Source of the DNA: Deltaproteobacteria bacterium
GTDB taxonomy: Bacteria > Myxococcota_A > Polyangia > HGW-17
DNA length: 64,000 bases
NCBI GenBank assembly: GCA_016937155.1
Contig: JAFGWM010000066.1
Location: 1-64,000 of the forward strand
Reading direction: 5' to 3'
Under the pieces are notes generated by a model. The model searched no databases, had not been told where the DNA came from, and saw only the letters and a list, made by a program, of their open reading frames with translations. Below, piece by piece: positions 16,101-61,503 of the stretch (positions are counted from its first letter, which is position 1; every line of letters starts with the position of its first letter). The position numbers were made by a program, and so were the translations under genes.

Positions 16101-17705
16101 ATGCTGGATTTGATACAGGTCAAATGTGATTCGTGTGGAACGATAAACGAAGTGATTCCTGGGAGTAGTATTATCGAATGTGATTCGTGTGGTTCACTTT
16201 TAAGAGTACCTGAAATGGGGAAATCCAAGGATGATGATTCTTTTGAATTCGGTATGAATTTTCAATCCTCATCGGGTACTTCTGCCGGACTGGGATTTAC
16301 GTCATCGTCTGACAATGAAGCCGGACTGGGATTTACGTCATCGTCTGACAATGAAGCTGGACTGGGATTTACGTCATCGTCTGACAATGAAGCTGGACTG
16401 GGATTTGCATCATCGTCGGACAATGAAACTGGACTGGGATTTACGTCATCATCAGACAATGAAACTGGACTGGGATTTGCGTCCTCGTCTGACAGTGGTG
16501 CAGAGCAGGTTTTTTCGTCAACTCAGGGGCAGGATAATAATGATACTGACTTTTCTTCCTCCAATATTGAGGCGGATGAGCATGATGTTTCTTCCAGGCA
16601 GGATGTCTGGCAGCCTCAGTCCGAAGAATATATTTCTTCAATAGACCAGTATATAACAGCAGATGAACTTGTTGAAGAAGAAGGAGATGATAATTACTCC
16701 AGGCCACAATATTCGGGAAACAGCCATCACTTGAATAGTCTTGAGATAGAAAAAGTTACTGAACCGGGGTTTATAGGTGCACCGCCTAAGGCTTCAAGTG
16801 GTCTGGGACCATTACCACCAGCACCAGCTGTTACTCAATCCCGTGTGCCGGAGAAAAAAACGGCAAATTCTCAGTTGATTCTAGTGACGATGATGATTTT
16901 TATTGGAATTATATTTTCGGTTTTTATAAAAAATAATAAAAAAAGAAGTGCTTCCCGCCGGCACAGTAAACACAGGATTGAAAAAAATAGTTACAGGAAA
17001 AAACAAAGACTTCAATATCCTAAAACTACCAGCAGGAATAAAGCAGTCGTTCCCAAAGATGTACCAAATGTAAACAGCTCTTTAAAAACAAGCTGGCTTC
17101 AATACCGGAAATCTGAAGGTATACTTCTGCATCCTGATATGGTGAATGCTCTTGATAAGTTTGTAGCAACCGTAAAACCTCCGGTTATCCACGATGGTAG
17201 GGGAGTAAATATTTTTATATTTCATCCATATACTCATATTGGTGTTGCCAGATTAAGACAGTTATCGAAATATCGTTCAAAAATAATTTCAAAATATCCA
17301 GGGAAGATCAGATGGATTGAGGTTCCCCATAGTGGTGAAAACAAAGCTGATTATCTGGTGGTGAATGCTCTATACAGTGTGTGGAAGATTGGCGGAGCCA
17401 GTTTTTATGAATCTTTCAAATTGGGACTTTTGAACACGATTGAATGGCGTCTGAAAGGGCGTGAAATAAAAACTATTATGGAAATTGCGAAGAATTCAAA
17501 TATAGACGATAAAGTTTTATCAAAAATGATTAAATCCAGAAGTGAGCTATGGAGAATTAAGTCTGCAAACCAGTATGTAAAGAATCTCAAAGCCAGTCAA
17601 AAGGATTTCTCTCTGGTGGTGGGAAATTTCATTTATCCCAGCAAAGCAATTTATAGAATTGATTTTATTGTAGATGGCCAGATATTATGGGGTAACTCAA
17701 AATAA
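16101..17705 (+). CDS. Zinc ribbon, 12-residue repeats, TM and cysteine-less DsbA-like domain
   Basis: 534 residues in four parts. (1) An N-terminal zinc ribbon (Cys9, Cys12, Cys27, Cys30) of the MJ0042 type seen in myxobacterial membrane proteins. (2) Six 12-residue repeats of the form GLGFTSSSDNEA in an acidic, disordered cytoplasmic region. (3) One membrane helix (about 256-275) followed by a basic stretch. (4) A C-terminal domain (about 360-530) with the strand-helix pattern of DsbA/thioredoxin proteins (VNIFIFHPYTHIG), but with His and Thr where CPYC would be, so it cannot do thiol chemistry. It may bind peptide or a partner in the periplasm (inference). The last nine bases overlap the convergent lipoprotein gene. 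Confidence 0.72.
   Translation: MLDLIQVKCDSCGTINEVIPGSSIIECDSCGSLLRVPEMGKSKDDDSFEFGMNFQSSSGTSAGLGFTSSSDNEAGLGFTSSSDNEAGLGFTSSSDNEAGLGFASSSDNETGLGFTSSSDNETGLGFASSSDSGAEQVFSSTQGQDNNDTDFSSSNIEADEHDVSSRQDVWQPQSEEYISSIDQYITADELVEEEGDDNYSRPQYSGNSHHLNSLEIEKVTEPGFIGAPPKASSGLGPLPPAPAVTQSRVPEKKTANSQLILVTMMIFIGIIFSVFIKNNKKRSASRRHSKHRIEKNSYRKKQRLQYPKTTSRNKAVVPKDVPNVNSSLKTSWLQYRKSEGILLHPDMVNALDKFVATVKPPVIHDGRGVNIFIFHPYTHIGVARLRQLSKYRSKIISKYPGKIRWIEVPHSGENKADYLVVNALYSVWKIGGASFYESFKLGLLNTIEWRLKGREIKTIMEIAKNSNIDDKVLSKMIKSRSELWRIKSANQYVKNLKASQKDFSLVVGNFIYPSKAIYRIDFIVDGQILWGNSK
16284..16499 (+). repeat. Six tandem 36-bp repeats (minisatellite) in the coding frame
   Basis: Units start at 16284, 16320, 16356, 16392, 16428 and 16464, each exactly 36 bases and in frame. 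The first three differ by one base; later copies drift (ACG to GCA or GCG, GAA to ACT). Near-identity shows recent expansion by slippage or unequal crossover, so copy number probably varies between strains. The opposite strand is open through the array, but that is a by-product of the repeat. Confidence 0.95.
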
Positions 17706-27626: not shown

Positions 27627-28233
27627 TTGCCTGTAACTGCCTGATTAAATTTCGCCATATATCCTCAACACCGATTCGTTTCAGAGCACTGAACATAACA
27701 GGCTTTTTGCCTATAGCAGATTTGATGGCTTCACTACGGTTACCCCAATGTGTTTTAGGAATTTTATCAACCTTGGTAATTACAGGAATCATTGGGATAT
27801 TCATTTCTTTAAGCCAATCGATGAAAAGAATTTCCTGATCTGTAACATCCCTCCTGAAATCAAACAGTAAAAGTACTGCGCAAAGCTGCTCCCTTGTTTC
27901 AAGATACTGCGAAATAAACTCTCCCCACTCTTCTCTCATCTCCATGGGAACTTTTGCATATCCGTATCCCGGAAGATCCGCAACTATAAAATCCGGTGAT
28001 GAATCTGTTTTTACATGGAAAAAATTAATTTCCCTTGTTCTTCCAGGGGTACGACTGACTTTCACCATTTTTTTACTGTTGAACAGAATCTGAAGTAAAC
28101 TGGATTTCCCGACATTACTTCTTCCTGCAACAGCAATTTCCATAAAACTCTCATTTTGAGGTAGATTGCTGACGGTGGTGGAACCTTTTATGAAGGACAC
28201 ATCACCTATTTGTGGAACAACAAATTTACTCAT
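27616..28233 (-). CDS. engB: Ribosome biogenesis GTPase EngB (YihA/YsxC)
   Basis: 205 residues. G1 is GRSNVGKSS, G2 lies around RTPGRTREINFF, G3 is DLPGYGYAK, G4 is TKVDK and G5 is in MFSALKRIG. The N-terminal FIKGSTTVSNLP and the YGYAKV segment are diagnostic. EngB is needed for late assembly of the 50S subunit. The start codon overlaps the stop of the giant TPR gene (ATGA), and the weak ribosome-binding site implies re-initiation by ribosomes finishing the TPR protein. Expression of this usually essential GTPase would then depend on translation of an 11-kb gene, unless an internal promoter exists. Confidence 0.95.
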   Translation of the reverse strand: MSKFVVPQIGDVSFIKGSTTVSNLPQNESFMEIAVAGRSNVGKSSLLQILFNSKKMVKVSRTPGRTREINFFHVKTDSSPDFIVADLPGYGYAKVPMEMREEWGEFISQYLETREQLCAVLLLFDFRRDVTDQEILFIDWLKEMNIPMIPVITKVDKIPKTHWGNRSEAIKSAIGKKPVMFSALKRIGVEDIWRNLIRQLQANES

Positions 28234-31200
28234 TGAATTTCATTCAGAAATGCTTTGATAGCTTCGTTAGTGGGATCTTCACTTAATCCTCTTTGGGCAC
28301 TGGCTTTTGCCTTGGGAGTATTACCCATTGAAAGATCTATTTTTGCAATTTCCAGGAAAATTTCGGCCTTGGTTATAAAACCGTCTATTTTCTGGAAAAG
28401 CAGTGCTCTATAGAGTTTCTGTGCCTGATCATTATTGCCCATTTTGAGATTACAATTCGCCATAGCAATAAGATTGGGTATATAAGTTGGATCAAGTCGC
28501 TGAGATTTCGTATAGAAATCTACAGCATTTGCAAAATCGCTTTGGCTCTCCCTGATCCCACCAAGTCTTTGATATATAGTAGCGAGCTCTTTTTTAGCAC
28601 TTCGATCCTTGGATAGCTCTTCACTCAGGGCATTGTAAATTTCTTCAGATTTTTCAAAATTACCTGATGAAAAATATACATCTCCAAGTTTCTTTTTCAC
28701 TTCTATATTACCTGAATCCAGGGAGCTGGCCTCTTCAAGATATGGGAAGGCAGCTTCCGGTGCACCGGATGCCACAAAAATATCTGACATCTCAAGAAGT
28801 GCTTCGAGACGATCTTCTACGTCTGTAATAAAAGGAAGCCTTGTCTGGAAAAGTTTCAGTTTCATGTGGGAGTCATTTTTAAGATCGCTGTATTCTTTCA
28901 GGTGTGTGAAAGCCTCTACATGACGCGGGTGATATCCAAGGGCTTCTTCCCATCTCATCACTGCAGTCTCTTCGTCTCCCAGTTTAGAAGCAACATTACC
29001 TCTTCTGCAGGCAAGTTCCGCACCTTCGACGCCAGTTGGTTCTAAAAGAGCAGCCTTTTCAAGGTATTGCTGACAACTTTCCCAGTCACTACGGTTCTCG
29101 TAGAGTCGGGCAAGACCAGTGAGAGCAGTGACATTAGAAGGCTGTTGTTCAAGTATCTGCTCAAGGATTTTCAGTGCTTCATCAGGATTCTCAAGGTTTT
29201 CTTCCCAGATCCTCGCTATTTTATCAAGATGTATAATCTCCTGAACACTGTCCCCAACAGAGTTGAAATGTGAAGCTCTCTTTTTAAACAGTTCAATCAT
29301 ATCATAAAATCTTTCGGATGATTTCAGTATAGAACTAAGTTTATCAAAGATTTTCTCCATTGAAGGATCAATATCCATTATTTGCTGATAATAGTCTGCT
29401 GCATCTTCAGGTTCATTAAGGTTATTCAGACTAAGATTTGCCAGTGCAGTCAAAGCCTCAATTTTACCAGCATCTGTTTCAGCCATGGAAAGTCTTGTGA
29501 AATACATATCCTTAACTGCATCCCAATCTTCTCTGCCTTTGAATATTTTAAGCATTTCCTTGAATGCTTCTTCATCAGAAGGACTTGCCTCAAATGCGTC
29601 TCTCCATGCCTCTTCAGCCTCATCAGGTTTATCAAGTTTCTCATCATAAATACGCGCAATTTTTTTCCTGACAGCCTGACGTTCCTCCACAGTCTGAAGG
29701 TAATTGATGCGGATATTGAGTATATCAACCAGATCGTTATAATACTCCATCTTCTCATAAATTCGAATTAACTGAAGTTGTGTCTCTCCATCAGACTCAT
29801 CATTCTCCAGGAGTTCCTTCCATGCCTGAAGGGCTTTGGGTAGATTATTCATGCCATTTTCATAAATGTCAGCAATTTCAACCAGAAGAGGTTTCTTCAC
29901 TGAGGGATCAAACTCTATTTCAGAACGTTTTTCTAAAATTTTGACAAGTTCCTCTGTGTTATCTGATACACGATACATTTCCTCAAGTGATTTTAATGCA
30001 GTGTTATTTTCTGGCTCACGTTTTAGAATCTGCTGATACATCTCCTGAGCATATTCGGAATTACCATTTCTCAGCATCAGTTCGGCAGTTTTTTGTGCTG
30101 CTGTAACCGCTGTCATATCATCGATATCGTTATCAAGAGCTAATTTAACTGCGTTATAGACTATTTCGGTTGAGCCTGCCATTTCAGCTGAACTGATAAA
30201 TTCTTCAAGATACAATAGTTCCTCGGGACTATAGGAGAATGCTTTTCCCCAGTAGGATATGGTACTCTCAAAATTCCCAAGGGTGCTTGAAAGTCTTGCG
30301 GCTTTTTCCATAAGAGCTGATTTATCCATTGAATCTTCAGAAAGAGATGTCCGTGCTTCGTAAACCTTAATGAGGTTTTGTTGTTGTCCAAGTGATTCCC
30401 ACACAGGTTCAAGTACATCAAGTACTTCAACGAGATATTCCTTTTCTCCACTCATCATCTTTTCGAGAGCAGCGATACTGTCCGGATGTCCAGGGGAAGA
30501 GTCAAGAGCTGCACGGAAAGAATCAATTGCTCCATGATGGTCTGAAAGCTGGTTTAGTTTCAAGTCACCAAGTCTATAATTGAAAACTGCTTTTTCATCG
30601 GGTTCAAATGCACTATTTGCTTCCATATCGAGGAGTTCAGACAGCTTTTCCCATTTTTGTGTAGAAACAAGAAGTCTGTCGAGTTCCCTGAGGATTTTCA
30701 AATCAGGCGGAATGGATTCAACAAGTTTTTCCAGAACACTTACAGCTCCTTCCAGATCTTCCATATTTAACTCATGAATTCTGCTGTCAGTGAGCATAAG
30801 TCTGGTTTTCAGTTCTTCATCGTATACATCTTCAGTGATATTCTCATAAATTTCGGTGAGATCATTCCATTGCTCGGTTTCAGTTGCAATTCTCTGCAAC
30901 TGAAGTTCCGAATTCTGATCACCAGGTTGAAGTTTGAAAAGCTTACCCCAGAATTTGAAGGCTTCCTTGGGATTGCCGGATTTCTCATAAAGCTTGGCAA
31001 GATTTTCAAGGTATCCTGAGAGCTCTGTCTGCTCAAGATCGCGATCAATCAGAGTGCTGTATAGTTTTATGAGAGCCTCATCATTATCCTGTGAGACATA
31101 AAGTGGTTCAAGGATAGAGGCTACATTAGAAGTATACTCATCCTCCTCAAGTATTTTCTCGAGTGCATCAAGTGCAGGCTGATAGTTGGGACTGAAATCA

Positions 31201-34200
31201 AGAATAAAACGATATTTTTCAAGAGCCCCTGTAACATCACTCAATTCATCATGCAGGACCTGAGCTGTGGTGAAAATAAGTTTATTTCGTTCAGTATCTT
31301 CAGTTTCAAGACTAATCATCCGGTCAAGACAATCGATTAGGTCTGCCCAGTTTTCTTCTTTTCTATAAAGTCTGGAAAGATCATTGAGTGCTTTTTTGGA
31401 ATCAGGAACCTCTTCAATGATTAATTTAAGGGCATTGGTAGCTTCGTAAAGATCTTCAAGTTTCTCTTCATAAATACCAGAAAGTTTAAATGCCTTTTCT
31501 ATTCGTTCATCAGGACTGACATCCATCAGATTAGAGATAATATCAGGAAGTTCATCCCACATTTCTGATTGTTCATAAAGTTTTTCCAGAGCACGAAGGG
31601 CTTCTTCATCCATTGGAATGAAATCAAGAAGTTTACGCCAGGTTTCAATTGCCTTCTGATTTTCCTCCAGAATATCCATTCTGAGGTTAGCAAGTTTTCT
31701 GAGGGTTTCTCCTGCTGACTCCGGATCACTGAGAATCTCAGATTTTTTATCCAGAACTTCTGCGAGTTCCTCCCAGTTTTCTGATTCACTTAACAAAATA
31801 GAAAGTTCAGTCAATGCTTCAGGATGATCATCACGTATTTCAAGTACACTTCGATATGAAGCAATTGCGTTTTCAGTTTCCTCAAGTGTTTCATTCTGGA
31901 TTCTGGCAATACGCATGAGAACATTCACCTGAAGTTCTGTATCATAGCTATCCTTAATTCCAGACTGAAGGACTTCAATAAGTTCAGCCCAGTTGCCAGA
32001 GCGAAGAGCTAACCCATATATGTTTTCCAGTGTCTGTGCATCACTGGTTTCCAGTTGCCAGGCCTTAGCAAGAGCCTTAAATGATTTATTGAGATCATTA
32101 GCTCTTTCATCATATATGAGCGAGCATTCTTTCAAATAAGAAATTCTCTGAAAATCATCATCTGAAAGTTCAATCTGGACTTCATATACTTTGACAAGCT
32201 GCTGCCATTGATCAAGTTGCTGATATATGGGAAGAAGTATGATGGCGACCCTGAGCTTAACATCCTCATTTGCTATAAGTTTTTCGAGATAGGTGAGGGC
32301 ACGTTCGTTTAAGGGGTCTGCTCTGAGAATATTTTCCAGACAATCAACTGAACTCTGGGGATCCCCAAGTTTCTCAAAATAGAGTTCACTGAGTCTCAGA
32401 TTGATTGAAATAATATCATCCGCATCTGTTCTTGTATCAACCTGATATGTGAGGTGTTCAACAAGATCCTCCCATTTTTCCAGTTTTGTGAAAAGTCTGG
32501 TGAGTGAATCAACAGCTCGCTGATCCTGAGGATCTCCCTCAATAATTTCACGGAAAACTTCGATGGCTTCATCATTTTTCTCAAGACGATCTTCAAGTAC
32601 ACCACAAATCTTGTAAAGATAGGGGTTTTTCTTTGTGGGATCGAAATAGGAGTCAGCCACTTCTCGGTAAACTTCCAAGAGTACATCCCATTTTTCATTT
32701 TCAAGCAACAGAAGTTCAAGTTCCGTGAAAATATCATCCCTGGAACGGTCCGCGTTCAGGATACGTTTGTAACACTCAATGGAACTGTCTACTCTTGAAA
32801 GTTTTCGTGCATAGATTCTGGCCAGTTCTTCTGATATTTTGAGAATGTGTTCACTGTCCCCGTATGATTCTTCAAGTACTTTAGCAAGTACAACTGAAAT
32901 CTCTTCCCATTTTTCCAGAAGTTCAGCTAAATTGAGTAATCTGTCCAGAACACTGCTGTTTTCCGGTTTTTCCTGAAGCAGATATCCATACCAGACAAAA
33001 GCCTGCTCAAGATCCTCAAGAACAGACTCATATAAATCAGCTATGCGCTTGGTCAGGGATGATTTTATTTCTGGATCCGACTCCAGATTTCTTTGGAGAC
33101 TAAATACATTTATCAGTTTAGTCCACACCTGTCTTGCTGCATAAATCGGAACCAGTACTTCTGCAGCCTGCAGAGCGTAATATTCCTCATCAAGGAATTT
33201 CTCAAGACGGGTAATGGTTTCTTCTGATGATGGATTTCCACCAAGTGATGCTTTAAAGGATTCGATAGCTCTGTCGCTGTCTTCCAGAAAATCCATAAAG
33301 ATTTCACCCATGTTAAATCTGATTTCAACAGCTTCTTCGATATCCTCCACAAACCGGATTCGCTGTTCATAAAGCGAAATGAGTTCCTCCCATTTCTCGA
33401 GATCGAAATAAAGACCCTCAAGTGAACGGAAAATTCCCGAATCATCAGGTCTGAAAAGTAAAATATCATTGAAATGTTCTACTGCCTGCTCAGGATCTTC
33501 GAGTTTTTTATGAGACAGTTCAGCCGCTTTCACAAGAACTTCAAATTTTGTATCTTCTGCTATACCAACCAGTTCACTTCTTCTGATGTATATATCATGA
33601 AGAGCCTGCCAGTCTGAAGTATCTTCATAAACTCTTTCCAGAGCATCCATGGCGTGGAGATTTTCAGGAGACTGTTCAAGAACCTTTTCGTAATACTGTC
33701 TTGAAACTTTTAGATCATTAAGTGCATCGCGGGCAACATCAGCTATTGTCAGATAAACATTCTCCTGAATTTTCATATCCATGATGTCATCGCCGATTGA
33801 ACGGTACAACTCCACCAGATCTGTCCATCTTCCTTCAATGGAAGCCAGTCTTTGCAATTGAGAAAGAATTTCCGGGAGATCAGGATCCGAAAGTGCTTCC
33901 TTACATGCCTGTCCATAAAAGCCGAACGCTGCAACTACTTCACCCAGTTGATTCTCTTTGATACGAGCTATTTTGAGGAAAAGGTCTATTTTTTCCCTGG
34001 GATCCATACTGTATCCAGCCTTTAGAACATAAAGGCCCGTCAGTTTTTCAAAATTGTCTTCGAGGTCATAAATTGTTTCAAGGATTCCTGCGGCGCTGAG
34101 AGCAAGATACTCATCCCCCTGAAGCATACTTTCAAGAGCAAGTTTTGCCTTGTCGTGGCCTGGATCCTCTTCAAGGACATCACGGTATTTCTCTATTGCT

Positions 34201-37200
34201 CTTTCCGATTCCTCAAGATGAATCTGGAGGATATACCCCAGTCGGTATTTAAGACTTCGGGCCATGTCGGGATCGGTTGTCAGATTAAGTTCTCTCTCAA
34301 CCAGATCATAAACATCTGCCCATCTTTCAAGACTCTCATAAAGTCTGGCGAGATTTCTGAGGGCTTCACCATCTTCAGGATTTTCCAGAAGGATAGAGTT
34401 CCATGCTTCAGCAGCACCCTCGGTTTCATTGAGGCTCTCTTCCCTGAGAATAGCAATTCTACTGTAGCAGCTGTGTCTTATTTCACTGTCTGTAGTAAAA
34501 TCCACCTTCTTTGAAAGTACATCAACAAGTTCAGCCCATTTTCCAATACGGCTGTATATGAATTCGAGTCTTTCCAGTGCATCCTTATCATCCGGGAATT
34601 CTTCAAGAAGTCTATTGTACGCCCTGGCAGCATCTTCAGGAGCGTCAAGCATATCTTCCTGAAGAGCAGCAATTCTTCTGTAAATATTCTTACGCTCGTT
34701 CTCCTCTGTAACCCACGAAAGCTGTCTGTTATTGAGATCTATAATCTCAATCCATTCAGACTGCATTGAGTACAAATCTATGAGGGCAAGAGCGGCTTTT
34801 GCCTGATACTCGGTATCGCCTTCTGCATCAAGTAGTTTACGATACCATAAAATGGCGTTTTCAATATCTGATAACTGGCGTTCATATATTCTGGCAATGC
34901 GTTCTGTATAGAAAAGAATCAGCCCTTCTTCATCTTTGGATGAACTTATTGCATCTTTCCATACTTCAACTAGCTCGCCATAAGAATTGATTGCTATCGC
35001 TAACTGCTCAATAGAGGCTCTTACCTCCTCATTATCAGGTTCTCTTTTCAGAGCCCTTCTAAGGGCACTGAAGGCTTTTTCAGGGTCTCCAAGTTGAATT
35101 GTGAGAACATCTGCCTGACGGGCCAAAATCTCAACAGCATCATGATCTTCAGTGGCAAATTCAAGTTGAATTTCATACATATGAACAAGACTTTCATAAT
35201 CGCTGTCCTGCTCATATAATTCACTAAGGATAACTGAGCTTTCCTGTCGGGTTTCAGGAATATCAAGCATTTCAAGCAGCAGTTTTCTGGTATTCTCATG
35301 ATCTTTTCTGATATTTAGTATATCCCTGACTATTTCTACAGCTTCCATATTTCTGTTAAGCTTATGGAGAAGGATATCGGCCCTTGAATAAAGATATCTT
35401 ATCTGCTGTTCAGGAGTTTCCTGATACGCAAAATCTTCTTCGTAAATTCTCGCAAGGCTTTCCCAATCATCCGATAATTCATATAGTCTCACGAGACTCT
35501 CAAAAGCCTCGGGAGAACCCCCTTCAAGTTCGCGAAGAGTTGAATAGGATTTTATAGCTGCAGGAATATCAGTCAGCATGTTCTCATTCAGATGTGAAAG
35601 CTTAAGTACCAGCTCTTTCTTTAGTTCAATATCATCCTGAGCATCAATTGTTGAACTGTATAATTTTCTGAGTTCTTCCCACCTGTCAGAGGAACTGTAA
35701 AGTCTCTCCAAAGCAAGAAATGCTCCTTCATGAAGAGGATTTTCTTCAAGAACTATCAAATAGTACTTTTCAGCTTCTGTTCTATCATCTCTGTCTTCTT
35801 CTTCAAGGAGAGCAATTTCCCATGCAAGTTCAAGTCTTAAATTCTCGATCTCAGAGACAATAAATTCAAGATAGAGGTCTTTCAGATCCTCAAGTCTGTC
35901 ATCCAGTCTGGAAAGACTTCTGAGCTCCTGTCTGGTATCTTCAGATAATGGATCCAGCTTGAATAAGGTACATGCAATTTCAAACCCTTTTCCTGTATCT
36001 CCAACTTTTCTGGTTACAACACTTAGCAGTTCTCTGTAGTGATCAAGCTTTTCCTGAAGTTCATCTTCAAACTCAGCTATAACTTCCAGCGCCTGAGAAT
36101 AGTCTTCCCAATTATTGTTTTCACTGAAGTGTGGAGCTAAAAGCCTAGCTGATTTCAATCTGAAGGATTTTTCTCCATCTCCCAGAAGTATTTTCATCAG
36201 GCCCTGAACTGTTTCTCCATGTGCAGGTGATGTATTCTCCATTATAAGAGCAAACTGCTCCATGGCTTCATCTTTTTCATTCAGATGTTCGAACTTCAGA
36301 GTCCCAACTCTGTATCTAAGATCAGTCTGATCAGGAGAGTCATCATTAGTAAGGGTTAACCTTGTGTCCAGTATTGCAGAAAGCTCGTCCCACTTTTCTG
36401 TTTCAAGATACAGTCTGTCGAGGGCTGAAAGAGCCTTAAGATTCATTTCATCATCTGAGAGAATCTCTTTGTAAAGAACAATTGCATCATTTTTTCTATC
36501 CAACTGGGTCTCATATATTTCAGCCATTTTGTGTCGGGCACTTGTGAGATACCCGGAGTCAGATAATATTTCCAGTTGAAGTTTGAGTATATCTATAAGG
36601 GCATTCCAGTCTTCCCTGAACTCATAAATAGTACCAAGTCCTGAAAGTGCCACAGGGCTTTTAGGATCAAGATCCAGAACTTTTTTCCATGTAGTCTCTC
36701 CCGTTTCGAACTCAGTTAATTCCTCAACTTGGATACGAGCCAGTCTGGATAATATATCAATTTGATTTTCTCCGGATAATTCCTCTGAAGATTCAGCGAA
36801 AACATCGGAAGCTTCTCTCCATAATCCTGCTTCCCCGGCAAAAGTCTCTATCTGAGATGCCAGAGCTTTATCATTCGGTTTAATTCGGAATGCCCTGCAT
36901 GAGATATCGAAGGCTTTTTCGGGTGAACTCAGATTCTGAGTATAAAGGCCGATTAATTTGTCCATCCATTGAAGTTTTTCATCAATGTCATCTACATTTT
37001 CAGCCAGAATTTCATACATGCTAGCAGCAAGAGGCCATTTGCCGGCGTTTTCGTATATTGGGAGAAGTTGCTGTGCAGCTTCCCTGTTGGCTGGATCAGT
37101 TTCAAGTATTTTTTCAAATGGTTTTACTGCTCTATCTGGCTTCTCCAACTGATTGATGTATATACTGGATACTTTAAATAGAAGAGAAATTTTTTCTTCA

Positions 37201-39386
37201 GTATCATCTGTGGAATCGGCACAGCCTGAAAGAGTTTCAATATATCCGGTCCAGTTTTCTTTCTGAGAGAACAGATGTTCCAGTTTTTCCCAGTTTTTGT
37301 TTGCAGCGTACAGCTCTTTCAGTATTTTAATTGCTTTTGGATGGTTGGGGTTGAAATCGTTTACTGTCTGCCAGATTTCCATGGCCAGACTTCCGAGATT
37401 TCCAATTTTGTCTGTGATAAGAGCTCCTGCTTTTTCAAGCAGAGGAAGTGCTTCATCATCAGTTGAAAGACTTATTTTTCTACGAAGCATTTCAACCAGA
37501 GCACCATAACGTTTTTCCCTCTCGTAAAGGAAAATAAGGTTCTCCATTGCATCAATATCATGAGGATCTTCTTCGAGTACCAGGTTCCAGGATTCAATTG
37601 CGAGTTTAAGATTTCCAAGGGGTTGTTGAGCAAATTTTGCAACTTCAACCAAAAGAGGCATTTTCTCTGAATCGGAAACCATGTTCAGTTCCATCATCTT
37701 AAGATCGAAAAGACCCTTCCAGTTCCTTCTTTTTTCATAAATATCCTTAAGCTGCTCAATAACCTCACGATCGGTAGGATCAATAGCAAGAACATTTTCC
37801 AGAGGTTCTGCCGCTTTATTTGGATTTGAAAGGCGATCGTTCCACAGGGTGGCAATTTTTTTCAAAAACTTGATTTTTGCATGATCATTCTCTTCAGAAT
37901 CAAGTTTTTGCTGGTATATGCTTACAACCTCTTTCCATCGATTCATTGCTTCATATTTTTCAACGAGATTATCGAGTGCTCTTGAGTTTTCCGGGTCAAG
38001 CTTAAGAATCTGGTTGTAAACGCTTACAACCATAGCATCAACTTTCATTTTATCTTCGATAAGCTCAGCCATTTTAAAAAGCACAGTAATTTTGCCTGCA
38101 TCATCATCCTTGCTCAGGCGGTGTTCCTCATCCTTGTAAAGTTCAAGCAAAAGGTTCCATTTCTCAGTTGATTCATAGAGTTCCTTAAGAGCTTCAATGG
38201 CTTCAGTTGAATCGGGATTGGATTTGTAAATTTTCTTCCAGACTTCAATGGCTTTCTCCGGGTTGGATTCTCTGGCAACCTCAGAAATTTTTCTAGCCAG
38301 TTCAAAAGTCCTGTTTTCATCATTTTTAACTGTTCTCATTGCTTTCTGCAGCATAGCAATATGTCTGAGAACATCACCTTTTGAAGTGTAAAACTCTCCA
38401 TAGAAATTAAGAACCAGAGGTGAGTCGGGTTCTGCCATCATAACACGCTGGAAATACTGCTCGGCACTGTCAAGATCTCCAACTTTTTTCCACCAGAGCA
38501 TTCCCAGTTGGATGTAATTTCCGATATCCTGAGAACGTGAGTTTTTAATTTCAAACTCATAAAATGCAATGAGATCCTCCCATTTTTCCTGAACAGTAAA
38601 TGCTTCAACAAGAAGACTCTTTGCAGCTTCATCACCAGGTACTACCTCAAGTGCAGTCAAAAGGAATCCTTCAGATTTTTCAGGGGTGTCTGTCTTTTCA
38701 ATGTACAGTTTACTCAGTTCAAGAAGATATGTTAATTTTTCCTGAGGCTCTTCAATTGAATTTAGTTTGCCTTCGAGCAGGGAGATCAGATCCTCATATT
38801 TGCCGGAAATTCTGTAGTAATGTTCCAGATGAACAGTTATATCCGGATTCTCCGGGTCCGCATCGTGAGCTTTTATTAAAAGCTCCTCCACCATGGACGG
38901 GTCTTCACTGTATTTCGCTGCAACTTCAGCAGCTCTGTAATACATATGCCCTATTAATTCCGGCTCTGTACTTCCATCAGCTTCACTGAGATACTTTTCC
39001 AGCAGTTTTTCCCAGTTCTCTGATTCAAGTTCCAGACTTTGAGCCCGATCAACAGATTCCTCATCTGATGGTTCAAGGGAAGCCAGTTTCTGATAGGTTT
39101 CGAGTGCAGCGTTCCCCATCCATAATTGGGAATCCAGTAATTCTGCCATCGTTCTTAACAGTTGCACATTTTCAGGATCATTTTCGATTCCGATTCTCAG
39201 CAAATCATACCCGAGCATATACAGTCTGACTGCAACAGCTTTCTGGTAATATTTCAAAATGAAATCGGTTTTTTCATTTCCTGAAGACTCAGTTTCACGG
39301 AAACTGCTGGAAAACTCTTCCAGTAAATCTGAATCAGAAGGGGACCTTAATAAACTAGCGGCTAACGTCTTGATTTCCTTTATCAT
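28230..39386 (-). CDS. Giant TPR-repeat protein (about 3,718 residues)
   Basis: The start ATG 39386 follows GAGAGAGG; the longer frame begins on TTG 39407. The product is cytoplasmic, very acidic, with no signal peptide, TM or catalytic domain. It is almost wholly made of degenerate helix-hairpin repeats: about forty copies of a unit near 70-75 residues with W-x-x-L-x-x-x-Y (WEDLIAFYE, WKEVVSIYQ, WEELISLYE, WEDLVEHLT) followed by DP-(E/D) turns and LE-x-LY. That is a TPR/HAT superhelix. The last 400 residues drift to conventional TPRs. Such proteins scaffold large assemblies. Myxococcota genomes encode long TPR proteins, but a single 11-kb gene is unusual. The stop overlaps engB (ATGA). Confidence 0.9.
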   Translation of the reverse strand: MIKEIKTLAASLLRSPSDSDLLEEFSSSFRETESSGNEKTDFILKYYQKAVAVRLYMLGYDLLRIGIENDPENVQLLRTMAELLDSQLWMGNAALETYQKLASLEPSDEESVDRAQSLELESENWEKLLEKYLSEADGSTEPELIGHMYYRAAEVAAKYSEDPSMVEELLIKAHDADPENPDITVHLEHYYRISGKYEDLISLLEGKLNSIEEPQEKLTYLLELSKLYIEKTDTPEKSEGFLLTALEVVPGDEAAKSLLVEAFTVQEKWEDLIAFYEFEIKNSRSQDIGNYIQLGMLWWKKVGDLDSAEQYFQRVMMAEPDSPLVLNFYGEFYTSKGDVLRHIAMLQKAMRTVKNDENRTFELARKISEVARESNPEKAIEVWKKIYKSNPDSTEAIEALKELYESTEKWNLLLELYKDEEHRLSKDDDAGKITVLFKMAELIEDKMKVDAMVVSVYNQILKLDPENSRALDNLVEKYEAMNRWKEVVSIYQQKLDSEENDHAKIKFLKKIATLWNDRLSNPNKAAEPLENVLAIDPTDREVIEQLKDIYEKRRNWKGLFDLKMMELNMVSDSEKMPLLVEVAKFAQQPLGNLKLAIESWNLVLEEDPHDIDAMENLIFLYEREKRYGALVEMLRRKISLSTDDEALPLLEKAGALITDKIGNLGSLAMEIWQTVNDFNPNHPKAIKILKELYAANKNWEKLEHLFSQKENWTGYIETLSGCADSTDDTEEKISLLFKVSSIYINQLEKPDRAVKPFEKILETDPANREAAQQLLPIYENAGKWPLAASMYEILAENVDDIDEKLQWMDKLIGLYTQNLSSPEKAFDISCRAFRIKPNDKALASQIETFAGEAGLWREASDVFAESSEELSGENQIDILSRLARIQVEELTEFETGETTWKKVLDLDPKSPVALSGLGTIYEFREDWNALIDILKLQLEILSDSGYLTSARHKMAEIYETQLDRKNDAIVLYKEILSDDEMNLKALSALDRLYLETEKWDELSAILDTRLTLTNDDSPDQTDLRYRVGTLKFEHLNEKDEAMEQFALIMENTSPAHGETVQGLMKILLGDGEKSFRLKSARLLAPHFSENNNWEDYSQALEVIAEFEDELQEKLDHYRELLSVVTRKVGDTGKGFEIACTLFKLDPLSEDTRQELRSLSRLDDRLEDLKDLYLEFIVSEIENLRLELAWEIALLEEEDRDDRTEAEKYYLIVLEENPLHEGAFLALERLYSSSDRWEELRKLYSSTIDAQDDIELKKELVLKLSHLNENMLTDIPAAIKSYSTLRELEGGSPEAFESLVRLYELSDDWESLARIYEEDFAYQETPEQQIRYLYSRADILLHKLNRNMEAVEIVRDILNIRKDHENTRKLLLEMLDIPETRQESSVILSELYEQDSDYESLVHMYEIQLEFATEDHDAVEILARQADVLTIQLGDPEKAFSALRRALKREPDNEEVRASIEQLAIAINSYGELVEVWKDAISSSKDEEGLILFYTERIARIYERQLSDIENAILWYRKLLDAEGDTEYQAKAALALIDLYSMQSEWIEIIDLNNRQLSWVTEENERKNIYRRIAALQEDMLDAPEDAARAYNRLLEEFPDDKDALERLEFIYSRIGKWAELVDVLSKKVDFTTDSEIRHSCYSRIAILREESLNETEGAAEAWNSILLENPEDGEALRNLARLYESLERWADVYDLVERELNLTTDPDMARSLKYRLGYILQIHLEESERAIEKYRDVLEEDPGHDKAKLALESMLQGDEYLALSAAGILETIYDLEDNFEKLTGLYVLKAGYSMDPREKIDLFLKIARIKENQLGEVVAAFGFYGQACKEALSDPDLPEILSQLQRLASIEGRWTDLVELYRSIGDDIMDMKIQENVYLTIADVARDALNDLKVSRQYYEKVLEQSPENLHAMDALERVYEDTSDWQALHDIYIRRSELVGIAEDTKFEVLVKAAELSHKKLEDPEQAVEHFNDILLFRPDDSGIFRSLEGLYFDLEKWEELISLYEQRIRFVEDIEEAVEIRFNMGEIFMDFLEDSDRAIESFKASLGGNPSSEETITRLEKFLDEEYYALQAAEVLVPIYAARQVWTKLINVFSLQRNLESDPEIKSSLTKRIADLYESVLEDLEQAFVWYGYLLQEKPENSSVLDRLLNLAELLEKWEEISVVLAKVLEESYGDSEHILKISEELARIYARKLSRVDSSIECYKRILNADRSRDDIFTELELLLLENEKWDVLLEVYREVADSYFDPTKKNPYLYKICGVLEDRLEKNDEAIEVFREIIEGDPQDQRAVDSLTRLFTKLEKWEDLVEHLTYQVDTRTDADDIISINLRLSELYFEKLGDPQSSVDCLENILRADPLNERALTYLEKLIANEDVKLRVAIILLPIYQQLDQWQQLVKVYEVQIELSDDDFQRISYLKECSLIYDERANDLNKSFKALAKAWQLETSDAQTLENIYGLALRSGNWAELIEVLQSGIKDSYDTELQVNVLMRIARIQNETLEETENAIASYRSVLEIRDDHPEALTELSILLSESENWEELAEVLDKKSEILSDPESAGETLRKLANLRMDILEENQKAIETWRKLLDFIPMDEEALRALEKLYEQSEMWDELPDIISNLMDVSPDERIEKAFKLSGIYEEKLEDLYEATNALKLIIEEVPDSKKALNDLSRLYRKEENWADLIDCLDRMISLETEDTERNKLIFTTAQVLHDELSDVTGALEKYRFILDFSPNYQPALDALEKILEEDEYTSNVASILEPLYVSQDNDEALIKLYSTLIDRDLEQTELSGYLENLAKLYEKSGNPKEAFKFWGKLFKLQPGDQNSELQLQRIATETEQWNDLTEIYENITEDVYDEELKTRLMLTDSRIHELNMEDLEGAVSVLEKLVESIPPDLKILRELDRLLVSTQKWEKLSELLDMEANSAFEPDEKAVFNYRLGDLKLNQLSDHHGAIDSFRAALDSSPGHPDSIAALEKMMSGEKEYLVEVLDVLEPVWESLGQQQNLIKVYEARTSLSEDSMDKSALMEKAARLSSTLGNFESTISYWGKAFSYSPEELLYLEEFISSAEMAGSTEIVYNAVKLALDNDIDDMTAVTAAQKTAELMLRNGNSEYAQEMYQQILKREPENNTALKSLEEMYRVSDNTEELVKILEKRSEIEFDPSVKKPLLVEIADIYENGMNNLPKALQAWKELLENDESDGETQLQLIRIYEKMEYYNDLVDILNIRINYLQTVEERQAVRKKIARIYDEKLDKPDEAEEAWRDAFEASPSDEEAFKEMLKIFKGREDWDAVKDMYFTRLSMAETDAGKIEALTALANLSLNNLNEPEDAADYYQQIMDIDPSMEKIFDKLSSILKSSERFYDMIELFKKRASHFNSVGDSVQEIIHLDKIARIWEENLENPDEALKILEQILEQQPSNVTALTGLARLYENRSDWESCQQYLEKAALLEPTGVEGAELACRRGNVASKLGDEETAVMRWEEALGYHPRHVEAFTHLKEYSDLKNDSHMKLKLFQTRLPFITDVEDRLEALLEMSDIFVASGAPEAAFPYLEEASSLDSGNIEVKKKLGDVYFSSGNFEKSEEIYNALSEELSKDRSAKKELATIYQRLGGIRESQSDFANAVDFYTKSQRLDPTYIPNLIAMANCNLKMGNNDQAQKLYRALLFQKIDGFITKAEIFLEIAKIDLSMGNTPKAKASAQRGLSEDPTNEAIKAFLNEIQ

Positions 39387-39705
39387 GACCTCTCTCTTGC
39401 CAATCAATGTTGAAGGTTTCTAAAGTCTACAATACTAAACATGGCAGTTATCGTAACCCTTAAACAAATTTGAATCAATCTCAAATAGAAATTGTTTTTT
39501 CAGTTTTTTGTAAACATTCATTTTTAGACGCGTAACATATTGTAGAAAAACAGATTTATCCTGTACCAGCAGGAAAGTTAAACATCATGTTAGGGTGCTG
39601 GAAGGGAGAGTTATTACAGTGCTATAGAATTTTCCCTGTAAAATATTATACACATATTTGCAAAGAAGGCTTCTGATGACCAAGACAGTGGACTTGAAAT
39701 CAACA
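39387..39705 (-). other. 319-base gap between cheB and the TPR operon
   Basis: Both neighbours run leftward, so this holds the che terminator and the promoter of the TPR-engB-rimI operon. On the minus strand a TATAAT lies at 39645-39650. The inverted pair CCAGCA (39566-39571) and TGCTGG (39596-39601) frames a 24-base loop with an internal AACAT/ATGTT, and would sit in the leader of the giant gene. No T-rich terminator stands out. No ORF is supported. Confidence 0.4.
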
Positions 39706-53464: not shown

Positions 53465-55330
53465 ATGCCTACACCCATTAAACTCACTATTAAGTTTAAA
53501 GCGGATACACTTGGTGAATTTGTAGAAAAATACGGTACTTATGTTAGTCAGGGTGGTATTTTTGTCAGAACCCGGAAACCACTGGCTGTGGGGACTCTGC
53601 TTGATTTTGAATTTAAACTTCAAAATGGTGATGCCCTCCTTAAAGGTATGGGTACGGTTGTCTGGACCAGAGAGCATGATCCCGGGCGAAAAACTGCTCC
53701 AGCGGGCATGGGGTTAAGATACGATTCTCTTGACTCTGAAAGTCAGGGAATTCTTGAAAAAATACTTAGTATTAAAAGTGAAAATGCCAGCGATACAGAC
53801 AGTGTGATTGAAGAGAGTAAGGAAGTAGAGACAAGTCCAGGTAATCAGGAAGAAAAGACTCGTGTTGCCAGCGTAGATGTTCTGAAAAAGTTAAGAGGTA
53901 CTGATAGCTCAACTGAATCAGACTCTTCCGATGAAAAAGGACCAGCATCCGATATTTTCGATGATATGGATGATCTTCCTTCCAGTGATGGGAAGCAGGA
54001 AAAAGCAGAAACTGCGAAAGAATCAATACCGGATGAACCTGAAGATTCCGCAGAAAAACCTGCAAAGGATAGCCCTGTTCAGACAAGCTGGGATGATGAT
54101 GCTACACCGATTCCCAGTAAAATTCACCCTCTCATTTCTACTGATGATTCAATCCCACCGGAGGAAAAGGACGAAACTGAAGAAACTGAAGAACATAAGC
54201 AGGAAGAACAAAAAAATATCAGTGATATGGAAACTTCTCAACTTCCAGCAGATGATGATATTCCGGATCTTGACGAGGACGTGTCAAGTGCGTTTGATTC
54301 TTTGTCGGCACAGAGTGAAAATGAGAAAACTGCTGTTCCTGAAATTCCAGTTGACGTAAAGAAGGTATTTGATATTGAGGACGATAATAAGAAAATAATA
54401 ACTGAAGAGGTAGTTGAGGAAAAGAGTAGTGGTTCACTTACCATAATGCTGTTCTTTATTCTGGTTGTACTTGCTGCTTTTGCCCTCTATTATTTCCGGT
54501 TTATGCATAAAGATACTAATGAAAGCCAGACAAAAGTCAGTTCTGAAAAAAATCTAAAAAAGACTTCTGCTGACAGTATGAAGGTCAGCAGTATGAATTC
54601 TGAAATGAAGGTTGATACTGTAAATGGTTCCATGAAACCACCTCTGGATATGAAAAGTGGTGATGCCACCAGAGTGGAAGTGGTTGATATGAAAAGTAGT
54701 GATGCCACCAGAGTGGATGTGGTTGATATGAAAAGTGGTGATGCCACCAAAGTAGATGTGGTTGATATGAAATCTGGTGATGCCACAGAAATCAGGAAGA
54801 TTGGTATCGCAAAAGACGTCATGAAACCGGATACTGTTATGCCACCCAAGGAGGCAACTCCCGCAAATTGTGGTCCAAATCAGCACGAAGCACAGGTAAC
54901 AACAGTTCCTGAAGGTGCTGATGTTATGTTGAATCTTGAAAAAACAGGAAAGAAAACCCCTGTGAATATTTGTCTTGATAAAGGTAAAAGTTACAGTTTC
55001 AAAATAGAACTTGATGGTTATCTTGCTGTAAATTCATATCATCCGAGAGTTAAAGGTCCATTGAAAATTCATAAGCAGTTATCTCAGGTTCCAAGACAAC
55101 TGGTGATTCAATCCAGACCCAAGGGCGCTATGGTCTATATTGACGGGAAAAGAATGGGGCCAAGTACAATTGCCCAGAAATATCCTGTTCCTCAGGAACT
55201 ATGGAAAATAGAAATCAGAATGCGTGGATATGAGCCCTATAAAACTGTTGTAAAAAAAGATGATCCCAAGTGGATTAAAAAAGGTTATGCATATATTTTC
55301 AGTGTGTTTGCGATTCTCAAGGCTCAGTAA
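53465..55330 (+). CDS. PilZ-TM-PEGA protein
   Basis: 621 residues. The N-terminal 100 form a myxobacterial-type PilZ domain (TIGR02266-like): VSQGGIFVRTRKPL, GTVVWTRE, GMGLRYDSL. The RxxxR motif needed for c-di-GMP is not seen, so nucleotide binding is doubtful. An acidic, Ser-rich linker (about 110-320) leads to one membrane helix (about 325-345), a 13-residue repeat stretch (about 394-440, MKSGDATRVEVVD) and C-terminal PEGA-type beta domains (VTTVPEGADVMLN, VIQSRPKGAMVYIDGKRMG). PEGA domains are surface or periplasmic. It may pass a cytoplasmic signal to the envelope. It converges with pyk. Confidence 0.78.
   Translation: MPTPIKLTIKFKADTLGEFVEKYGTYVSQGGIFVRTRKPLAVGTLLDFEFKLQNGDALLKGMGTVVWTREHDPGRKTAPAGMGLRYDSLDSESQGILEKILSIKSENASDTDSVIEESKEVETSPGNQEEKTRVASVDVLKKLRGTDSSTESDSSDEKGPASDIFDDMDDLPSSDGKQEKAETAKESIPDEPEDSAEKPAKDSPVQTSWDDDATPIPSKIHPLISTDDSIPPEEKDETEETEEHKQEEQKNISDMETSQLPADDDIPDLDEDVSSAFDSLSAQSENEKTAVPEIPVDVKKVFDIEDDNKKIITEEVVEEKSSGSLTIMLFFILVVLAAFALYYFRFMHKDTNESQTKVSSEKNLKKTSADSMKVSSMNSEMKVDTVNGSMKPPLDMKSGDATRVEVVDMKSSDATRVDVVDMKSGDATKVDVVDMKSGDATEIRKIGIAKDVMKPDTVMPPKEATPANCGPNQHEAQVTTVPEGADVMLNLEKTGKKTPVNICLDKGKSYSFKIELDGYLAVNSYHPRVKGPLKIHKQLSQVPRQLVIQSRPKGAMVYIDGKRMGPSTIAQKYPVPQELWKIEIRMRGYEPYKTVVKKDDPKWIKKGYAYIFSVFAILKAQ
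54647..54790 (+). repeat. 39-bp tandem repeat, three full copies and a partial
   Basis: Units start at 54647, 54686 and 54725, each 39 bases and in frame, with a diverged partial from 54764. Each encodes a 13-residue unit centred on MKSGDATRV. Only a few positions differ between copies, so expansion is recent. The array lies just outside the membrane helix and acts as a spacer before the PEGA domains. Confidence 0.93.
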
Positions 55331-58612: not shown

Positions 58613-59977
58613 TCAAGGAATTTCCTGTTTTTTTTCAAAAGACGGTTCCAGTTCCGATGGTAGTATAATTCCACCTGAAATACAGGCAGCTTTAATCAGA
58701 CATGAATACACAAGTGCAACTGAGGGATCATAATTATTTAAAGCATGTAGGTGCTTTTTTATAGTACTAAAATCTTTTCGGATTAATGGTCCACTGATTA
58801 CAGATTCAGCAGAATTGAACAAATTTACGAAGTACTCCTTGTCATCAATTTGAGACAGGCTGCACATCAGGTCTGTTAAAATATCAATCGAAACCCCAGA
58901 TAGTTGGGATAAAATATCCATTGATTTTCTGAATACCGGTTTGGAGAGATTAGCCACTGCATTGCATGCACTATGATAGAGACTATAGTCAGGTTCACTT
59001 TCCAGAAAAACTATTGAGAATCCTGAGTGTTTAAGAAAATTAATCTCTGTTTCTGAAGCAAAATGGGAATGAAATACCCACTTGACTTTTGAAAGATCCG
59101 TATCATGGGAATGAACAGGAGCTGCAGGATGAAAAAGGCACCCTCTTGCATCCCGAGAAGTTTTTTCATACCATGGGACTGCACCGGAAACTGATAAAAC
59201 AAGGGCATGAGTATCCTCAATAGCAACTGTAATATTGTCAGGTGTACAGAGAAAAATGTAATCCACGTTTTTAATGTCCACGTTCATGATGCTATTTGAC
59301 TGTTGAATGTAATCTTCTGAACTGTGATGAGGAGTCAGAATCCAGTCAACTCTGATGTGAGAACCTTCAAGAAAGTGGCAGATTGATTCTCCAACTCTGC
59401 CAAAACCAATGATCCCTGCTGTTTTTTCAGACTGAATTTTATAAAGCGAATGTTTAAGAATGAGGCTTTTAACATCAGGGGCAATGAAATCTCCGGGGCT
59501 TTGTCCTCTGGAAATCATCCGGCGAATATAGCTGGAGCTTATTTGGGGTAGAGATATACCATCTTCACTACTGCTGATTAATCCTCTTTTTATTTCACGA
59601 ATCTGCCACCTGGATTTTAAGTCTGAATATCTGTACCAGTTTTCAAATGAATATGAATTATCACTTCCTATATAGAGAACAATATTATAATCAGGATAGA
59701 TGCTTTGAATTTTATCCAAAGTGTCATATGTGTATCCACTTAATTCAGTTGAATTTTCTATATCAGAAATTTCAACATTTCGAAAAAAAGAAAATGCTTT
59801 TCGGCACATTTCCATTCGAATTGAAAAATCAGTCATTTGCTTATGATAAGGATGGTTGGCTGATGGTACAACCAGCAGTTTATCTATTCCGTCTGTGAGG
59901 GCTACAGAAATAATGAAGGAATGGGCAATATGTGGTGGGTCAAAGGCGCCTCCAAAGACTCCAATAGTTTTTTTCAT
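58613..59977 (-). CDS. nadD: NadD-DUF2520 fusion: nicotinate-nucleotide adenylyltransferase plus Rossmann/DUF2520
   Basis: 454 residues, over twice the usual NadD length (about 200). Residues 1-180 are a complete NadD: GGAFDPPHIAH (9-19), VPSANHPYHK and ISSSYIRRMI near 146-155. It makes deamido-NAD from nicotinate mononucleotide and ATP. Residues 187-440 are a Rossmann domain with GFGRVGESI, then the DUF2520 pattern (VLSVSGAVPWYE, LFHPAAP, DYSLYHSACNAVANL, GPLIRKDFSTIKKHL). DUF2520 proteins are uncharacterised dehydrogenase-like enzymes, in some genomes next to pantothenate genes. Joining them may couple NAD synthesis to an NAD(P)-dependent step. The start overlaps the permease stop by four bases. 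Confidence 0.88.
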   Translation of the reverse strand: MKKTIGVFGGAFDPPHIAHSFIISVALTDGIDKLLVVPSANHPYHKQMTDFSIRMEMCRKAFSFFRNVEISDIENSTELSGYTYDTLDKIQSIYPDYNIVLYIGSDNSYSFENWYRYSDLKSRWQIREIKRGLISSSEDGISLPQISSSYIRRMISRGQSPGDFIAPDVKSLILKHSLYKIQSEKTAGIIGFGRVGESICHFLEGSHIRVDWILTPHHSSEDYIQQSNSIMNVDIKNVDYIFLCTPDNITVAIEDTHALVLSVSGAVPWYEKTSRDARGCLFHPAAPVHSHDTDLSKVKWVFHSHFASETEINFLKHSGFSIVFLESEPDYSLYHSACNAVANLSKPVFRKSMDILSQLSGVSIDILTDLMCSLSQIDDKEYFVNLFNSAESVISGPLIRKDFSTIKKHLHALNNYDPSVALVYSCLIKAACISGGIILPSELEPSFEKKQEIP

Positions 59978-61503
59978 GTTTTTCTCCTGGCCAGTCCTCC
60001 TGCAGGATCACTTTTTGCCGCTTTAAGAGCTGGAAAAAGAGTGGCTGCAATGCACAAAACAAAAGTAGTCAGAGAGATCATAACAAAACTTTCAATACTG
60101 ATATTCACAGGAAGTTTGCTTATAATATATACTTCCGGGTCAAGAGGAAAAGAATACTCTTTAAGAAGAAAACTGATAAGTGTTCCAAGGGTCTGCCCTG
60201 CAATAAGGCCAATGATTCCAATTATCATACCACTGGTCACAAAAATCATTGCAATGCTGGAGTCTGAAGCCCCAATGGCTTTCAGAATAGCAATTTCTTT
60301 TCTCTTATCAAGAACGAGCATATAAAGAGCACTGAGAACTCCGAAGGAAGAAACAGTGATGAGAAAAAACAATAAGACCCAGATAACAGTTCTGTGGAAC
60401 TGAAGATTCTGAAAGACCTGTGGATTAAGCTCACTCCAGGTTACAACCCTTAGACTTACACCATTTTGCTGTAATGCAGACTTTAGTCTGGCACTGACAG
60501 CATCCGCCTGATCCATATTTTTGAGTCTCATTTCTATTCCAAAAACTGTAGGTTTATCGTTCTCACCAGTGGGATTAAAAAACCTGGTAACATGAATATG
60601 AGTATAGGCCAGTTTCTGATCATATTCTTCAAACCCCGCAAAGAATATTCCGGTTACACAAAATTCAAAGTTCTTAACCGGGACAGTTTTTGTTGAAGAA
60701 CCAAGAGTTCCGGAAAAACCAAGGAAAGGGCTTACTAAAGTTACTGCATCTCCTATTTTAATATTCAATCGATCCGCAAGGGCTTTACCCAGAATTATGG
60801 ATGGCCACGGAGCCTTCTGGGATCTGCATAGTTCATTCCCAAGGGGTTTGGTCCCGTTTTGTTGAATACTGTCAAGGGTATCCTCAGAATCATCAAAATC
60901 GCTGGGTTCATCAGTATCGGGAGAGTAGTCCTTGTTAAGGTTCAGTGATTCTATGGAACCTGATTTCAGATGTTTTGGCAAATCCAGTACTTTTTTTGAA
61001 ATATCAGGTGATATTCCTTTTATCAGTACTCCACTGTGCTTTCCATCTTTCATGATCAGCATTTCATTCAGGTTAAAGGGAGCTGCTTCAATTACATCCG
61101 GATCTTTCCTGGATATTTCCAGGGGAAGCTCAAAGTTCGAAAATGGACTGGAATGAGGCATAAGCAAAATATGTCCATTTACCCCAAGAATTTTTTCCTT
61201 GAACTCCCGTTGAAATCCGGATGATACAGACCAGACGATACTTATCACTGCGGTGCCCAAGAGAACACTCGTAATTGATATTGTGGTGAAAACATTAAAA
61301 AATATCAGTAATCCTGTGGTTAAAAAAGTAAGTAACCCGACACTGGTGAGAATAATCGCAGGAAACTGTAGAAACTTAATATCAAATATAAAAACACTGA
61401 TCCCAAGAAGAACAAGGGTTATGCTGAATAAAAAAATCTTAAGTATACTTTTACTTTTTCCTGGGGAATACAGATATTTCCAGCTGGTGAAAATCTCGAA
61501 CAT
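59974..61503 (-). CDS. LolC/LolE-like lipoprotein-release permease
   Basis: 509 residues, about 100 longer than LolC/LolE. The extra is an N-terminal pair of membrane helices (about 22-60) before the usual first helix. A periplasmic MacB-type domain (about 95-350, with EAAPFNLNEMLIMKDGKHSG) follows, and then three FtsX-type helices with the DKRKEIAILKAIGASDSSI motif, which couples to the ATPase. Lol permeases extract lipoproteins for export to the outer membrane. No LolD ATPase is nearby. The start overlaps the stop of the signal peptidase-like gene (TAATG), and its own stop overlaps nadD (ATGA). Confidence 0.85.
   Translation of the reverse strand: MFEIFTSWKYLYSPGKSKSILKIFLFSITLVLLGISVFIFDIKFLQFPAIILTSVGLLTFLTTGLLIFFNVFTTISITSVLLGTAVISIVWSVSSGFQREFKEKILGVNGHILLMPHSSPFSNFELPLEISRKDPDVIEAAPFNLNEMLIMKDGKHSGVLIKGISPDISKKVLDLPKHLKSGSIESLNLNKDYSPDTDEPSDFDDSEDTLDSIQQNGTKPLGNELCRSQKAPWPSIILGKALADRLNIKIGDAVTLVSPFLGFSGTLGSSTKTVPVKNFEFCVTGIFFAGFEEYDQKLAYTHIHVTRFFNPTGENDKPTVFGIEMRLKNMDQADAVSARLKSALQQNGVSLRVVTWSELNPQVFQNLQFHRTVIWVLLFFLITVSSFGVLSALYMLVLDKRKEIAILKAIGASDSSIAMIFVTSGMIIGIIGLIAGQTLGTLISFLLKEYSFPLDPEVYIISKLPVNISIESFVMISLTTFVLCIAATLFPALKAAKSDPAGGLARRKT

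Follow-up and report, generated by a model that had tools for sequence, protein, structure and literature searches.

A single open reading frame in the DNA analysed here (the whole stretch of 64,000 nucleotides from contig JAFGWM010000066.1, hereafter the window) joins NadD, an enzyme of NAD synthesis, to a member of DUF2520, a family that Pfam still lists as being of unknown function. The locus raises the question of which reaction the second half might catalyse and what could have brought the two together in one polypeptide.

Organization of the fused gene

The fused gene occupies positions 58613..59977 of the reverse strand and, according to the list of open reading frames and the sequence itself, encodes 454 aa in a single frame running from an ATG start to a TGA stop, an arrangement that recurs in relatives. 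Its ATG overlaps the stop codon (ATGA) of the gene directly upstream, which codes for an FtsX/MacB-type permease (59974..61503, reverse strand; identified with Pfam and blastp of the neighbours), and an AGGAG resembling a ribosome-binding site lies ahead of it at 59984..59988 of the same strand. By blastp of the neighbours, a permease of this type also directly precedes the fused gene in four related genomes (G001, G004, G006 and G007) and the NadD piece in a fifth (G002).

Residues 1–180 (59438..59977, reverse strand) constitute the nicotinate-nucleotide adenylyltransferase half, as indicated by Pfam, NCBIfam, profile and Foldseek analyses. The CTP_transf_like domain matches residues 7–153 (E 4e-12; 46.8 bits versus a gathering cut-off of 21), and a profile built from relatives aligns a complete NadD with residues 5–179 (E 1e-51). 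Both NadD motifs, GG.FDP.H..H and SS..IR, are present in the sequence: the nucleotidyltransferase signature reads GGAFDPPHIAH (residues 9–19; 59921..59953, reverse strand) and the second motif ISSSYIRR. The NCBIfam model TIGR00482 (NadD) aligns end to end (E 1.5e-29) and falls 9 bits short of its curated cut-off (103.4 vs 112.45 bits), which makes the name NadD less certain and leaves fold and motifs unaffected.

The second half, residues 184–434 (58676..59428, reverse strand), is of the PanG type, that is, a Rossmann domain followed by DUF2520, again according to Pfam, profile and Foldseek. The DUF2520 match spans residues 328–427 (E 8e-8; 32.5 bits, above the gathering cut-off) and hence lies within residues 187–440, where an earlier note on this DNA had placed the domain; the relatives-built profile recovers the entire Rossmann plus DUF2520 protein at residues 188–432 (E 2e-20). 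Pfam detects no ApbA_C domain (PF08546) in the fused protein. The AlphaFold model of the whole chain has a mean pLDDT of 89.9, with low-confidence stretches that are short. Its N-terminal half matches NadD crystal structures in Foldseek, and the C-terminal half modelled alone has 3d1l as its top match and 2i76 within the top four, both of which are DUF2520 proteins by sequence profile. The open reading frame, the Pfam and profile matches and Foldseek together bear out the description of the locus in the earlier note, which saw a complete NadD joined to a complete DUF2520 protein and proposed a Pfam scan (both domains score above their gathering cut-offs) and a structure prediction (both halves find their expected counterparts).

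Elsewhere in the window, a 3725-aa protein consisting largely of TPR repeats is encoded at 28230–39407 (reverse strand), and a PilZ and PEGA protein at 53465–55330 (forward strand) contains an in-frame 39-base tandem repeat of DMKSGDATRVDVV units at 54647–54786. Another tandem repeat, of 36 bases in 5.8 copies (16287–16494, forward strand), falls within a 534-aa ORF without a Pfam match, and a 637-aa protein (5139–7052, reverse strand) shows a strong match to the IgGFc_binding domain (E 7e-57).

DUF2520 and ketopantoate reduction

In 2013, Miller and colleagues reportedly described a ketopantoate reductase of Francisella under the name PanG. The earlier note held that DUF2520 has no assigned reaction, a view that is outdated: PanG is a genetically proven ketopantoate reductase, and one study ties a DUF2520 protein to it (PMC4572677). 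In that study, on a Corynebacterium lacking panE, the homologues of the DUF2520 protein are named as EF1861 and FTT1388 (PanG). PanG is described as able to replace PanE in three further papers (PMC4494066, PMC5449765, PMC4207893), and genes from Enterococcus faecalis are reported to complement a mutant of Francisella novicida (PMC13055272). Membership of PanG in DUF2520 is suggested by this secondary source (PMC4572677) together with gene order, including that of an Enterococcus operon.

Gene context was surveyed with the profile built from relatives; scanning the named genomes with the window protein alone had given no matches. Among 80 DUF2520 loci found across phyla, panB and/or panC lay near the gene in 31, nadD in 19 and neither in 30; none of the 80 had both pan genes and nadD within the fetched flanks. 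Outside the host phylum, DUF2520 genes often come first in panB-panC(-panD) operons, and panB/panC is often directly downstream of DUF2520, as in Thermoanaerobacterium, Alicyclobacillus, Dehalococcoidia and Bryobacterales; Enterococcus faecium plasmids carry an operon of the order DUF2520-panB-panC-panD. The functional link to cofactor synthesis that the earlier note had read from the fusion is upheld, and ketopantoate, which it had named as a substrate to try, is a fitting choice. The DUF2520 gene is present on many Enterococcus plasmids (locus L170 and 106 plasmid records), and in the one plasmid that was read insertion sequences flank the four-gene operon.

A gap in the pantothenate pathway of the host

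The host genome is 95% complete and contains panB and panC side by side, as well as panD and nadB. No match to ApbA_C (PF08546)/PanE was found in it, nor a true IlvC: its KARI_N matches are partial and reach at most 35 bits, whereas genomes that clearly possess IlvC score above 200 bits. Since panB and panC are present while panE and ilvC are absent, the host needs a ketopantoate reductase. Its only DUF2520 domain is the C-terminal half of the fused protein, which lies away from panB-panC. Likewise, the N-terminal half is its only NadD candidate, the sole other CTP_transf_like match being a 179-aa frame elsewhere that is probably CoaD.

Genomes at least 85% complete and possessing panB were then compared for strong PanE matches (E below 1e-30). 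None of the 69 genomes with DUF2520 has such a match, compared with 6 of the 12 that lack DUF2520 (Fisher p 3e-6), a difference to be read with the qualification that the cut-off was chosen after the data were seen and that related genomes are not independent. The exclusion holds for strong PanE matches only, and none is seen between DUF2520 and any ApbA_C match (p 0.36). A strong PanE match or a KARI match is found in 10 of the 12 genomes lacking DUF2520, and 19 genomes have no candidate reductase other than the DUF2520 protein. Across the class, PanE/ApbA appears to replace DUF2520 or to be replaced by it. In four genomes without DUF2520 (G008, G010, G011 and G033) a strong PanE is encoded close to panB on one contig; the first three (loci L018, L019, L031, L085 and L086), which have a plain NadD, are members of the host's order, in two families other than its own. 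Within this one order, two unrelated enzyme families have thus taken each other's place at the ketopantoate reductase step. Two nearly complete genomes (G039 and G044) have panB and panC and show no DUF2520, strong PanE or true IlvC, so yet another ketopantoate reductase may exist; a weak ApbA_C match is present in G044.

The pan operon context, the PanG literature, the gap in the host pathway and the exclusion of strong PanE are what the PanG-type reading of the C-terminal half rests on, and they also argue against the best of its competitors, according to which this half acts on a different keto acid or on an imine as an NADP-dependent reductase, its link with nadD reflecting an undescribed step near NAD synthesis or repair. 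That idea draws on the adjacency of DUF2520 to nadD, a widespread arrangement that sets the phylum apart from other phyla with their pan operons, on the divergence of the host C-terminal half and on a fold common to pyrroline-5-carboxylate reductases, imine reductases and prephenate dehydrogenases; we consider it unlikely. An aspartate dehydrogenase, specifically, is not needed where NadB is present, and such a role for DUF2520 was rejected because NadB is found in the host and in 10 relatives. With NadB in place, the C-terminal half is not required for the aspartate oxidase step in NAD synthesis. The hint of an NAD(P)-related role taken up in the earlier note most likely points to NADPH as a co-substrate rather than to a part in NAD synthesis.

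Conservation of the C-terminal half

Ten residues are invariant in the family (G, G, D, HP, H, L, GP and R), and in our alignments all ten are kept in the window protein. The kept sites comprise those of the dinucleotide-binding loop GFGRVG (residues 191–196; 59390..59407, reverse strand), in which G191 and G193 are invariant, the HP pair, the histidine of the YH..N helix and the GP..R motif. The helix reads YHSACNAVAN (residues 334–343; 58949..58978, reverse strand), with H335 invariant and N343 near-invariant, and is probably the substrate site; the GP..R motif is contained in SGPLIRKD (residues 395–402; 58772..58795, reverse strand), where G396, P397 and R400 are invariant. Two near-invariant residues are absent from the window protein, the histidine of LH.SGA being replaced by S and the glycine of RGD by K. 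The host C-terminal half is divergent: identity between the window fusion and the same-genus copy is 31% in this half and 46% in the N-terminal half.

This faster divergence and the loss of near-invariant residues would suit a C-terminal half that is catalytically dead and regulates NadD as a structural or NAD(P)-sensing domain. The retention of all ten invariant residues makes such a role very improbable, as do the dN/dS values of three pairs of other fused genes, which are as low for the C-terminal halves (0.19–0.30) as for the N-terminal ones (0.21–0.34), so that in these other fusions purifying selection is equally strong on both. A dead domain would, moreover, leave the genome without a known ketopantoate reductase although panB, panC and panD are retained. 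The kept residues, together with dN/dS in other fusions, favour an active enzyme, short of proof for the window protein itself.

Distribution and origin of the fusion

One-frame fusions number 25, the window protein included, and occur in three groups of Myxococcota-related families. The genus has one other genome (G001), which shows the same fused frame, as do two genomes of the family (G004 and G006) and one from a second family of the order (G009); in G007 the gene is fused as far as the contig end, and in G002 each half sits at the end of a different contig, which is what a contig break within the gene would produce. The domains share one frame in 13 of 13 genomes tested from family f10, which belongs to the same class, and in six from two families elsewhere in the phylum (f39 and f50). 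Although the genome is a draft of 85 contigs and many relatives encode the halves separately, the possibility that two genes were joined erroneously during sequencing or assembly is ruled out for practical purposes by the independent recurrence of the fusion in G001, G004, G006 and G009, in G007 up to the contig end, in all 13 genomes of f10 and in the six of the third group. One fused NadD-DUF2520 protein, of 581 aa (G205, locus L176, 1484–3226), has a long, very divergent C-terminal half that keeps YH and ALTGPIARDD.

In a tree of the joined domains, 24 fused proteins fall into three groups and the best topology needs three changes; a single origin of the fusion is not rejected (AU p 0.17, or 0.59 with two groups). 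In most other genomes of the class the unfused nadD and DUF2520 genes adjoin in the same order and on the same strand. The distance from the NadD stop to the start of the DUF2520 domain has a median of 12 bases (66 loci, about nine of which duplicate a place already counted), so the two genes abut or nearly overlap. The pair extends beyond the class to other genomes of the phylum; in G167 the two genes are far apart. Named records with the pair are either Myxococcota (Polyangium, Kofleriaceae, Myxococcales) or metagenome-assembled genomes labelled Deltaproteobacteria or Proteobacteria, and it is from these relatives that the analysis derived the phylum of the host. Because the tight gene pair is widespread in the phylum, a close nadD-DUF2520 operon is the likely source of the fusion and the likely ancestral state. 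A break in the frame between the two halves, which the earlier note would have counted against the fusion if seen in related genomes, does literally exist in more distant relatives in the form of separate adjacent genes; it does not speak against the fusion and probably reflects that ancestral operon.

Comparison with known proteins and proposed function

The C-terminal half resembles the PanG-type reductases (FTT1388 of Francisella, EF1861 of Enterococcus and the DUF2520 structures 2i76 and 3d1l) in combining a Rossmann domain with DUF2520, shares with this family the motifs GxGxxG, HP, YH...N and GP..R, and like them occurs where PanE and IlvC are absent. Known PanG-type proteins are free-standing, however, and often encoded with panB, panC or panD, whereas here the PanG-type protein is joined to NadD, away from panB-panC. 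PanE/ApbA (PF02558, PF08546) catalyses the very reaction proposed for the C-terminal half and belongs to a different family, its ApbA_C domain having no counterpart here. The N-terminal half agrees with NadD (TIGR00482, PF01467) in being a full-length nucleotidyltransferase with GGAFDPPHIAH and a matching structure; unlike NadD, the fused protein carries a 270-residue C-terminal oxidoreductase and scores under the NCBIfam cut-off. Nicotinate/nicotinamide mononucleotide adenylyltransferases with a second domain are also known as NadD-HD (PRK07152), NMNAT-Nudix and NadR, and to our knowledge none of their partner domains is a pantothenate enzyme.

We therefore propose, with a probability of roughly 0.8, that the fused gene encodes a bifunctional nicotinate mononucleotide adenylyltransferase/ketopantoate reductase derived from a nadD-DUF2520 gene pair. 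The NadD half would convert nicotinate mononucleotide and ATP into nicotinate adenine dinucleotide, from which NAD is made. The PanG-type half would use NADPH to reduce 2-dehydropantoate, the product of PanB, to pantoate, the substrate of PanC, from which pantothenate and then coenzyme A would be made. Both activities and the choice of cofactor are predicted here. The fusion would have arisen from the tightly packed pair widespread in the phylum, and its benefit, as a guess, more likely lies in co-expression of two low-demand cofactor enzymes at a fixed ratio than in substrate channelling. NadE and NAD kinase stand between the product of NadD and NADP, which must then be reduced; direct channelling is unlikely because NadD does not make NADPH directly. 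A more speculative extension, improbable in our estimate, is that each of the two halves senses the ligands of the other (NAD(P)H and CoA), so that NAD and CoA synthesis would be balanced within one protein, a coupling that would be undescribed and may have evolved more than once.

Both halves belong to known enzyme families, and their fusion appears to be undescribed. The part of the literature that was searched contains no description of a NadD-ketopantoate reductase fusion, and the earlier note likewise knew of none. The finding points out the enzyme that likely fills the missing ketopantoate reductase step in a large group of bacteria, most of them uncultured, and adds comparative evidence that DUF2520 in general is a ketopantoate reductase family. 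It also shows that NAD and coenzyme A synthesis are physically linked in many genomes; should the two halves influence each other, this link would represent a new control point between two universal cofactors.
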